Assembly (NCBI GenBank): GCA_026988525.1
Contig: JALSLC010000009.1
Location: 1-61,084 of the forward strand
Reading direction: 5' to 3'
DNA from: Archaeoglobaceae archaeon
GTDB lineage: Archaea; Halobacteriota; Archaeoglobi; Archaeoglobales; Archaeoglobaceae
DNA: 61,084 bases
This document shows, in pieces, positions 17,155 to 22,029 of this stretch; position 1 is the stretch's first letter, and each line of letters starts with the position of its first letter. The position numbers and the translations under genes were made by a program. A model generated the notes under the pieces. That model made no database searches, was not told the origin of the DNA, and saw only the letters and a list, made by a program, of their open reading frames with translations.

Positions 17155-17186
17155 GATTTAATAAACCACCTATGTTATATTTTAAC

Positions 17187-17654
17187 ATGCCAAATCCAAT
17201 GGAAATATACAAGCTACTACCTAAGACAAACTGTGGTAAATGTGGTGAGAAAACCTGTATGAGTTTTGCTTTTAAGCTATTAAATGGTGAAAAAAAGCTT
17301 GAAGATTGTAAACCTCTATACTCTAAGGAATACGATGTGATAAGAAAAAAACTCGAAGAATTAATATCGATAGTTGAAAAAGCAAAAGAGACAGGTTTAA
17401 TAATTAACGAAGAATTGTGTATAGGATGTGCTAACTGCGTTGTTTCATGCCCAGTTCACGTTGAAAAAGATCCAAAAAACGCTGGAATTGGGAGGGGTAT
17501 TGAGATTGATGAGCCCATACTCAGAATTGAAAATGGAGTTGTAGTTGTAATAAACTTAAGTCTATGTAGGAGATACGGTAAAAATAGAACATTATGTGTT
17601 ATTTGTAGGGAAAATTGCCCTACAGATGCAATAGCGTTTGTGGAAGAGTTATAA
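17187..17654 (+). CDS. fwdG: FwdG-like polyferredoxin with N-terminal Fe-S (4Fe-4S) domain
   Basis: About 155 residues. The N-terminal domain, MEIYKLLPKTNCGKCGEKTC with a later Cys in EDCKPLY, is the four-cysteine cluster domain also found at the head of the acetyl-CoA synthase gamma subunit. Two ferredoxin clusters follow: CIGCANCVVSCP, whose fourth Cys is not contiguous, and CRRYGKNRTLCVICRENCP. An alternative start lies at 17172. In formylmethanofuran dehydrogenase such subunits carry electrons to FwdB. It is directly followed by FwdB-like and FwdD-like genes, so it is the electron-input subunit of a second set. The G designation follows archaeal usage and is tentative. Confidence 0.75.
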   Translation: MPNPMEIYKLLPKTNCGKCGEKTCMSFAFKLLNGEKKLEDCKPLYSKEYDVIRKKLEELISIVEKAKETGLIINEELCIGCANCVVSCPVHVEKDPKNAGIGRGIEIDEPILRIENGVVVVINLSLCRRYGKNRTLCVICRENCPTDAIAFVEEL

Positions 17655-17666
17655 GAGGGATATAAA

Positions 17667-18812
17667 ATGAGAGTTGTTTGTACTGCGTGTTCATGCCTTT
17701 GCGATGATGTATTGGTGAAAGATAAAGTATATCACGCATGTAGAAAGGGTTTTAAGCTTATTAAAGGTGAAAGAGAAGAGACTTCGATTAATGGTGAAAA
17801 ATCAAGTTTAGAAGAATCAATTAAAGTAGCAAGAGACCTAATTGATGGTAAAAAATTGCTGATTTTTGGATTAGATAATACAACTTGTGAAGCTCAGGAA
17901 GTTGCTTTAAAAATTGCTAAGGATTTTGAAGCTACAATTTTAGATCACTCTTTTATTTACAATATTCAAGAATTTCTAAAATTACCAAGCATTAAACTTG
18001 AAAAGTTTAGAGACGAAGGATACGTTTCAATATTTTGGGGAAGTAACCCGCACAACAGCATGCCAAGATTACTATCTCGATTTATATACTATCCAAGAAG
18101 TGGAAAAAGACAGAAAGGGTATGAAGAAGATAGATTTCTTGTAGTAGCAGATTTAAGAAAAAGTGAGACAGCCAAAATAGCTGAAAAGAGTAAATCTGGA
18201 TTATTTATAAAAATAGACAATGATTATGAGCTAATAAAATCTTTTATAAGAGTGATCGAAGGTAAAGCTTGCAAGTACTTGGAAGTTGCAAAAGTGTTAA
18301 AAGAGTTGGAAAAGGCTGAAATCAATGCGATATTTGGTGGAGGAGGCCTTTTAAGGAATTTAAAGGATGCAAAATTATTTAAAGAGTTGATCGAAAAAAC
18401 AGGTGTTTACTTTGTACCCACACTAAATAAAGCCAACCATAGAGGATACATTGAAATGATGATTAAAAAAACGGGATTTTTAGCTTACGATTTTAAAGAA
18501 GATACAAATTTGTCAAAGGATAAAATTTTAAATGCATTTAAAGATTGTGACGTTGCTCTGATTGTCGCATCCGATCCTTTGAGGACTTTGCCCTACGAAC
18601 TATCCAAAATACTTACAGAAAAAAAATTGATAATTATAAACAGTCTTAAGTCGATAATTGCAAAGATAACTAAATCAGTTGTTATATCTACAGAAATTTC
18701 ACCTTTCTCAGGAGGTAGTATGATTAGATGTGATGGTGTTAAAGTTCAAATAGAAAGACAATCTGAAAAAGTATCAGATTTGGACGTTTTGAAAATGCTA
18801 ATGGAGGTATAG
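17667..18812 (+). CDS. Divergent FwdB paralogue lacking the recognisable tungsten-ligand Cys
   Basis: 381 residues, 31 fewer than the FwdB at 6609. The N-terminal cluster motif CTACSCLCDD with Cys in HACRKGFKL is kept. So are FWGSNPHNSMPRLLSRF and the later SDPLRTLPYELS. The segment that carries SSVCHAPTT in the canonical subunit reads ILDHSFIYNIQEFLK here, with no Cys. Unless the alignment is wrong, the metal is bound differently or the subunit is not catalytic. It sits between FwdG-like and FwdD-like genes with 12- and 3-base gaps, so all three are co-expressed. An active site reorganised for another substrate is also possible. Confidence 0.8.
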   Translation: MRVVCTACSCLCDDVLVKDKVYHACRKGFKLIKGEREETSINGEKSSLEESIKVARDLIDGKKLLIFGLDNTTCEAQEVALKIAKDFEATILDHSFIYNIQEFLKLPSIKLEKFRDEGYVSIFWGSNPHNSMPRLLSRFIYYPRSGKRQKGYEEDRFLVVADLRKSETAKIAEKSKSGLFIKIDNDYELIKSFIRVIEGKACKYLEVAKVLKELEKAEINAIFGGGGLLRNLKDAKLFKELIEKTGVYFVPTLNKANHRGYIEMMIKKTGFLAYDFKEDTNLSKDKILNAFKDCDVALIVASDPLRTLPYELSKILTEKKLIIINSLKSIIAKITKSVVISTEISPFSGGSMIRCDGVKVQIERQSEKVSDLDVLKMLMEV

Positions 18813-18815
18813 TTT

Positions 18816-19124
18816 ATGCTTGATTTTACTAAATTAATGAAATTTGAGGCTAAAATTGTTGTAGTAGATGATATTTTGCTTGATGGTGAAGTCGCAAGAG
18901 CCTTGATAAGTAAAGAGTTTGCAAAAAAGCTGGGAATTAATAAAAGCGGATTCATTAAAATTATAAGAAATAACTCAGTTTGTTTTGAAGTTAAAGTTTC
19001 AGAGTTTGCAGATGGAGTAGATGTAGTATTACCTTCTGGATATTTTTCTGCAAAATTGCACGGAATGGATAAAGTATTCTTAGCAGAAGTTGAAAAATGT
19101 GAAAGTGCAGACACAATAAGCTGA
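18816..19124 (+). CDS. FwdD-like molybdopterin-dinucleotide-binding protein
   Basis: 102 residues, 22 fewer than the FwdD at 7860. It shows the FwdD-like opening MKFEAKIVVVDDILLDGEVA, where the canonical TGRTTEQG loop has been replaced. A FAKKLGINKSGFIKII strand-turn and a C-terminal VVLPSGYFSAKLHGMD take the place of the FIPMGPYANRV loop. The fold assignment depends mainly on context: three bases after the FwdB paralogue. It ends five bases before the 3' end of the convergent tRNA-Leu gene. Confidence 0.65.
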   Translation: MLDFTKLMKFEAKIVVVDDILLDGEVARALISKEFAKKLGINKSGFIKIIRNNSVCFEVKVSEFADGVDVVLPSGYFSAKLHGMDKVFLAEVEKCESADTIS

Positions 19125-21307: not shown

Positions 21308-21430
21308 AGCCGACAGTTTCCGCGCTTCCCGTGCCCTCTCGGAACACAGTACAACGCGGAACGGGATCGGGCTTAACTTCCGGGTTCGGAAAGAGTCCGG
21401 GTGTTTCCCCGAACCCTATGACCGTCGGCA
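21308..21430 (-). rRNA. rrf: 5S ribosomal RNA
   Basis: About 123 bases on the minus strand, the only strongly GC-rich block nearby. The terminal helix pairs GCCGAC at the 5' end with GUCGGC at the 3' end. The interior shows the archaeal 5S features CAUAGGGUUCGGGGAAACACC, CCGAACCCGGAAGUUAAGCC and the GAGAGGGCACGGGAAGC arm. No 16S, 23S or tRNA gene is adjacent in the same orientation, so it is an unlinked 5S gene with its own promoter. Ends are accurate to a base or two. Confidence 0.95.
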
Positions 21431-21449: not shown

Positions 21450-21470
21450 CGATATTTATAATTTTTGCTC
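21450..21470 (-). promoter_or_regulatory. Promoter (BRE/TATA) of the 5S rRNA gene
   Basis: On the minus strand GAGCAAAAATTATAAATATC combines a purine-rich BRE-like part with a TATA box. It is centred about 25-28 bases before the 5' end of the rRNA, which puts the transcription start at or next to base 21430. Confidence 0.75.
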
Positions 21471-21492: not shown

Positions 21493-22029
21493 ATGACATC
21501 TACAGTATTAAAATATATGAAAATAGATTTTTTTTGTTGTATATCCTGTCAAAACAGATTTCCAAATCATTTTTGTATAATAAGTCCGGATAGGCCTTCT
21601 CCTTGCGGTATAAGTTATGAGGAAGCATTAACGAGAGAAGAGTTTTTTATAAGAGTTAATCCCGGTAAAAAAATAGGTATAGACGAGTATGATGGACTGA
21701 ATTCATTTGTAAAACGTTTTGGATGTGAAAGATTAAAACTTCATTCAGTAAAAGAGTTCCCACACCCCACTTCACCCCTACAGCAGATAATAGCATTTTA
21801 CATACCGAATAGAGGGATTGGTTTGGTTGATAGAAAGTTTGGAGGTAGAACACCGATAGGATTAACTTTTATGGAAATGGAAGTACTTTCTGCAGGAAGA
21901 CAAGTCAGTGGATTTACTGGAGTTAGCTATAGCTATTTAAGAAAAAATGAGTTTCTCTGCGGAGAAGGTGGGCTCGATTCCGTTGTATGGATGAGCCCCA
22001 ATATTAGAGAATTTATATCTCACCTTTGA
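21493..22029 (+). CDS. Stand-alone CdhC/ACS A-cluster-like domain without the CGC nickel motif
   Basis: 178 residues against more than 400 for CdhC. Cys16, Cys19, Cys28 and Cys38 have spacings 3, 9 and 10, identical to the four [4Fe-4S] ligands of acetyl-CoA synthase, inside PNHFCIISPDRPSPCG. Further family blocks are RFGCERLKLHSVKEFPHPTS, NRGIGLVDRKFGGRTPIGLTF, SAGRQVSGFTG and GGLDSVVWM. Where CdhC has TSCGC, this protein has TSPLQ, so both nickel-binding cysteines are gone. It should hold a cubane but not the nickel site. It is not near other cdh genes. The N-terminus is uncertain, because an ATG at 21489 in another frame joins it across a run of eight T. Confidence 0.8.
   Translation: MTSTVLKYMKIDFFCCISCQNRFPNHFCIISPDRPSPCGISYEEALTREEFFIRVNPGKKIGIDEYDGLNSFVKRFGCERLKLHSVKEFPHPTSPLQQIIAFYIPNRGIGLVDRKFGGRTPIGLTFMEMEVLSAGRQVSGFTGVSYSYLRKNEFLCGEGGLDSVVWMSPNIREFISHL

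Follow-up and report, generated by a model that had tools for sequence, protein, structure and literature searches.

The window, that is, the whole stretch of 61,084 nucleotides of DNA of a thermophilic archaeon that was analysed, carries on its forward strand an open reading frame for a protein of 178 amino acids (Table 1). The frame adjoins a 5S rRNA gene on the opposite strand and lies tail to tail with a gene encoding an HPS-RraA fusion. A palindromic TATA-like heptamer located between the frame and the divergent 5S rRNA gene fits the starts of both by its spacing, and may thus be a divergent TATA box shared by the two. The window also holds a small cluster of three genes, encoding a 160-aa protein that combines a CdhE-type N-terminal Fe-S motif with a ferredoxin motif, a 381-aa FwdB-like protein (206.6 bits, against a family cut-off of 327.8) and a 102-aa protein without family match that is perhaps FwdD-like. 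The host genome (1.43 Mb, 99.8% complete) has its cdh genes elsewhere, on contig C14 (G000:C14), where cdhA, cdhB, cdhC, a CooC-like gene, cdhD and cdhE follow each other in a row; the CooC-like gene encodes an unscored 256-aa P-loop protein named by its appearance. The cdhC of this intact operon encodes 504 amino acids and keeps the SCGC motif, so that the 178-aa frame indeed lies outside any cdh operon, as had been claimed from the window alone.

Table 1. Coordinates of the features discussed, in window numbering (Met, Methanosarcina CdhC).
Feature	Position	Strand	Basis or remark
Nickel-free CdhC-like (ACS A3-domain) protein, 178 aa, very probable assignment	21493..22029	+	profile, structure-chain and relative matches
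Met9, plausible alternative start of the 178-aa protein	21517	+	
TTTATAA, palindromic TATA-like box, putative promoter	21455..21461	.	sequence read directly; between the frame and the divergent 5S rRNA gene
5S rRNA gene	21308..21429	-	
Cys15, extra cysteine	21535..21537		
Cubane ligand Cys16 (= Met C189 / Moorella C506)	21538..21540	+	invariant in 21/21 paralogues and 41/41 CdhC
Cubane ligand Cys19 (= Met C192 / Moorella C509)	21547..21549	+	alignment
Arg22, replacing the CO-alcove Phe (Met F195 / Moorella F512)	21556..21558	+	alignment with 41 CdhC
Cubane ligand Cys28 (= Met C201 / Moorella C518)	21574..21576	+	alignment
Cubane ligand Cys38 (= Met C211 / Moorella C528)	21604..21606	+	alignment
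Cys78	21724..21726		
Ser94-Pro95-Leu96, replacing the Ni-ligand motif Cys-Gly-Cys (Met 278-280 / Moorella 595-597)	21772..21780	+	alignment
Glu130, invariant in paralogues; Ala in 41/41 CdhC (Met A315)	21880..21882	+	alignment
Three-gene cluster	17172..19124		

The 178-aa protein almost certainly shares true homology with the C-terminal (A3) domain of CdhC (ACS beta) and has lost the nickel site. It matches PF19436, the ACS beta C-terminal domain, with 82.6 bits (hmmscan, E=4e-23), well above the curated cut-off of 25 bits, and hence belongs to the superfamily; the NCBIfam CdhC models recognize it with E-values of 3e-42 and 3e-32, and it falls below their equivalog cut-offs (TIGR00316, 112.2 against 356; NF003379, 144.8 against 372). 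Among solved ACS chains, chain E of the Methanosarcina structure 9c0s comes first (5e-23), followed by bacterial ACS. Moreover, the local alignment of the protein with the CdhC of its own genome scores 273, the best of 200 shuffled copies reaching 54, which together with the profile and structure matches excludes chance as the source of the resemblance. The reading of the frame as a CdhC-like A-cluster domain, made in the preliminary description, is therefore borne out. AlphaFold modelling of the window protein and two close relatives, on a shallow alignment, gave a pLDDT of 34. The A2 domain is absent from the protein, and no remnant of it was detected in the window. This, with the 5S rRNA gene just upstream, rules out the possibility raised at the outset that the frame is a frameshifted piece of a longer, normal CdhC, a possibility countered also by the presence of the same short frame in independent genomes.

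The four cysteines that had been proposed as ligands of a [4Fe-4S] cubane, at spacings of 3, 9 and 10 (Cys16, Cys19, Cys28 and Cys38), can be aligned gap-free with Methanosarcina CdhC, where they correspond to C189, C192, C201 and C211 (residues 506, 509, 518 and 528 in Moorella numbering), and all four are kept in the 21 members of the clade described below. An extra cysteine, C15, stands beside the first ligand (CC..C) in the short forms of both genera that have them, and C78 is conserved solely within the window's genus. The alignment is likewise ungapped from LHS to FYIP, and the nickel-ligand motif of CdhC, C278-G279-C280, falls on S94-P95-L96. The loss of the nickel-site cysteines first noted thus stands, but its register was one residue off, the true replacement being Ser-Pro-Leu and not Pro-Leu-Gln; no cysteine is found at the site in either register. 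Every CdhC read has CGC, and the nickel-ligand cysteines are kept in none of the 21 paralogues, which carry G/S/A and Y/L/F at the former C278 and C280, with no thiol, histidine or acid conserved at these positions across the clade. The early picture of a retained cluster frame with a lost dinickel site consequently applies to the group as a whole.

The changes extend beyond the nickel ligands. In CdhC, Phe195 forms the CO alcove above the proximal nickel (PMC11474084; PMC11321310), and the surface around the A-cluster that contacts CODH includes F195 and G279 (PMC11474084). The alcove position is Phe in at least 95% of 41 CdhC sequences and Y/R/H/K/S in the paralogues. The whole nickel-, CO- and CODH-facing edge has thus decayed, the alcove Phe (F195/F512) and its neighbourhood included. 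What the window protein shares with CdhC (TIGR00316, NF003379; 9c0s, Methanosarcina thermophila) is the A3 fold, by homology, and the four cubane cysteines, the invariants common to CdhC and paralogues being P24, R34, G39, R114, G123, Q137, G140, G143, Y148 and W166; unlike CdhC, it has no CGC ligands, alcove Phe, C-terminal extension or A2 domain, and it is not part of a cdh operon. With AcsB and bacterial ACS (Moorella 1oao, NF040764) it shares A3 homology (93.8 bits) and cubane cysteines 506/509/518/528, and differs from them in the lack of A1, A2, C595-G596-C597 and F512.

The gene is conserved across genomes, a point raised in the preliminary description. An orthologue is present in 22 of 55 Archaeoglobaceae genomes (about 40%); one of them (G002) is interrupted by a contig end, leaving 21 complete or near-complete members for analysis, all with the cubane cysteines. 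Most orthologues have 355-395 aa and span both CdhC domains, matching CdhC over A2 and A3 without its C-terminal tail (hhalign 100%, 345 columns), while short forms are of about 170-190 aa, the short open frames (174-187 aa) occurring in the window's genus (g1) and in the A. veneficus-type genus (g6). Within the window's genus the short forms share 72-76% identity, and one genome of this genus, 95% complete, misses the gene. True CdhC co-occurs in every genome bearing the paralogue. A profile search among 394 genomes sampled across the whole phylum gave at least 269.9 bits for clade members and at most 235.8 bits for all other ACS, and in this sample no member was found outside Archaeoglobaceae. 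A single-protein scan of GTDB contigs returned just the two closest relatives, and a scan of IMG/VR for the family gave no match. Independent nickel loss in secondary CdhC copies of other families of the phylum was also considered and rejected, since CGC is present in every copy with a readable cubane motif.

Two further observations were made in this survey. Two genomes of one family (G158 and G182; L115, L119, L132 and L135) have four CdhC-like genes each, the copies read keeping CGC. Four genomes of the same phylum encode, next to a normal archaeal CdhC, a bacterial-type full-length ACS of 681-739 aa with the motif TCCGCFE (L133, L138 and L139, plus L134 by motif); the three of the four that were scored (L133, L138, L139) exceed the bacterial alpha/beta ACS cut-offs. 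The A1 domain has been described as absent from archaeal ACS, and these genomes would provide an archaeal-hosted ACS with an A1 domain.

In a tree of 62 A3 domains (IQ-TREE), the 21 paralogues form a single clade with 100/100 support and a long stem of 1.42 changes per column. A tree joining them to the CdhC of Archaeoglobaceae was rejected (AU p = 0.0008). This hints at an ancient duplication or transfer as the origin of the paralogue, the long stem making the exact position of the root unsafe. Short forms are nested within long ones, meaning that A2 was lost secondarily. The term "stand-alone" first given to the window gene is thus correct for the gene itself, with the refinement that its lone A3 domain derives from a longer A2+A3 paralogue. 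Gene order agrees with the orthology of short and long forms: upstream of the A. veneficus-type short form lie the same SLOG/LOG-family and YjbQ genes as in the long forms of Geoglobus, and downstream of it the same HPS-RraA gene as in the window. The paralogues are under purifying selection, dN/dS being 0.05-0.24 in unsaturated pairs, with synonymous sites saturated within the window's own genus. Positions 195 and 278-281, of the old nickel edge, vary among paralogues, while the cubane frame is kept and S18, P37, D113-R114, E130 and S168-P169 show little or no variation. This contrast indicates that function resides in the cluster and the fold, and not in a replacement metal at the old nickel edge.

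A long member of this group has probably been reported already. In the genome paper of G. ahangari, GAH_00919 is counted as an extra copy of the beta subunit of CODH/ACS (PMC4600277). Genome G018 contains exactly one beta-like gene besides CdhC, outside the operon, and this is a long paralogue reading PPSTGNYAEA, without nickel ligands, that scores 369 bits, just under the NF003379 cut-off of 372 (the long Geoglobus form reaches 254 bits against the other CdhC cut-off, 356). Since there is only one such gene, GAH_00919 is most likely a long member of the nickel-free clade, an identification made by this reasoning and not by coordinates; published as a second beta subunit, it would correspond to a clade sequence devoid of nickel ligands. 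No description of the loss of nickel ligands was found in the literature searched, the main phylogenomic study of CODH/ACS lying outside that search.

The protein is predicted by homology to fold like ACS A3 and to hold a single, ordinary [4Fe-4S] cluster in which the protein ligates each of the four iron sites. By comparison with the known enzyme, it would have no dinickel centre and would neither bind CO or methyl groups nor synthesize acetyl-CoA, because both nickel ligands and the alcove Phe are gone, as is the A2 domain in the window protein. Its most likely role would be that of an accessory protein, redox-active or cluster-bearing, with an ACDS subunit as its ancestor. It would act in electron transfer or dock a partner by the part of the A3 surface that lies away from the former nickel edge, most plausibly still in the service of one-carbon (CODH/ACS) metabolism. 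The fact that every bearer genome also has CdhC weakly suggests that the role is within this metabolism. About half of the CODH/ACS-bearing Archaeoglobaceae, the A. fulgidus group included, do without the paralogue, and in no genome examined does gene order link it to cdh genes; it is therefore not needed for CODH/ACS. The lost F195 and Gly279 contacts argue against docking to CODH in the manner of ACS. An accessory or redox role, as read from the sequences, is put forward tentatively. The best overall explanation, that an ACS paralogue devoid of nickel carries a lone [4Fe-4S] cluster and works as a redox or accessory protein derived from an ACDS subunit, is one that we hold somewhat less than evenly probable. 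The judgement is evenly balanced on the evolutionary course, in which an ACS-fold clade may have been recruited to a new, non-acetyl-CoA function on the lone cluster and later pared to A3 alone. The initial reading of a neofunctionalised Fe-S protein finds support, and the 20 orthologues add to its strength.

No consistent functional partner emerged from the gene neighbourhoods compared. In all six g4 genomes (A. sulfaticallidus type) a MoaD-like gene of the ThiS family and then MoeA come after the paralogue in the same orientation, and in G004, which belongs to the window's genus, genes for MoaA and a MobA-like NTP transferase come next. These molybdopterin-synthesis neighbours in two lineages are weak hints pointing away from a CODH/ACS role and towards the main rival, according to which the protein would be an Fe-S accessory either to the synthesis of the molybdenum/tungsten cofactor (pterin) or to a tungsten enzyme. 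We consider this unlikely, the six g4 genomes being one lineage, which leaves two independent cases at most, and the neighbours elsewhere being different (a SLOG/LOG-family gene and YjbQ/UPF0047 in Geoglobus, A. veneficus and others; HPS-RraA and 5S rRNA in the window). It is also unlikely that the protein serves in Fe-S or metal maturation, or as a scaffold handing [4Fe-4S] to CdhC or CFeSP during ACDS assembly. Such a role would suit a cluster frame kept without catalytic site, the restriction to CdhC-bearing genomes and the position of the gene directly after a Mrp/NUBPL Fe-S carrier gene in G028; however, the Mrp linkage is seen in just one genome, CODH/ACS is assembled in many genomes that lack the paralogue, and four protein ligands suggest a stable cluster rather than a transferable one.

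A non-catalytic regulatory decoy competing with CdhC for CODH or CFeSP is quite improbable. The ancestral subunit normally docks on both partners and the long forms keep both A2 and A3, but the CODH-meeting surface round the A-cluster (F195, G279; PMC11474084) is altered and variable, and A2 was dropped in two genera with the gene retained. The view of a decaying cdhC pseudogene, to which truncation in the window's genus, the long branch and the absence from one nearly complete genome of this genus could lend weight, is already largely refuted and very improbable: frames are open in all examined genomes holding the whole gene, the cubane cysteines are invariant across deep divergence, dN/dS is well below 1, and the short forms of the window's genus remain closely similar. 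Hardly credible at all is a working acetyl-CoA synthase with other nickel ligands; fold and cubane frame are kept and Ser94 occupies one former ligand position, yet no alternative ligand is conserved at C278/C280 across the clade, the alcove Phe is lost and true CdhC is always present alongside.

ACS belongs to the enzymes that have been traced back to the last universal common ancestor, and the nickel site is regarded as the feature that defines it. The existence of a conserved branch without nickel indicates that the ACS fold can persist as a [4Fe-4S] protein, and the clade offers spectroscopy an ACS that naturally lacks nickel, in which the cubane can be studied by itself. Some of the extra CdhC copies annotated in Archaeoglobaceae would not be acetyl-CoA synthases, which bears on the carbon-fixation capacity read from genomes. 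If the proposed explanation is true, these proteins would represent a truly neofunctionalised branch of an enzyme that ranks among the oldest in carbon fixation, a branch later reduced to a minimal new Fe-S protein.
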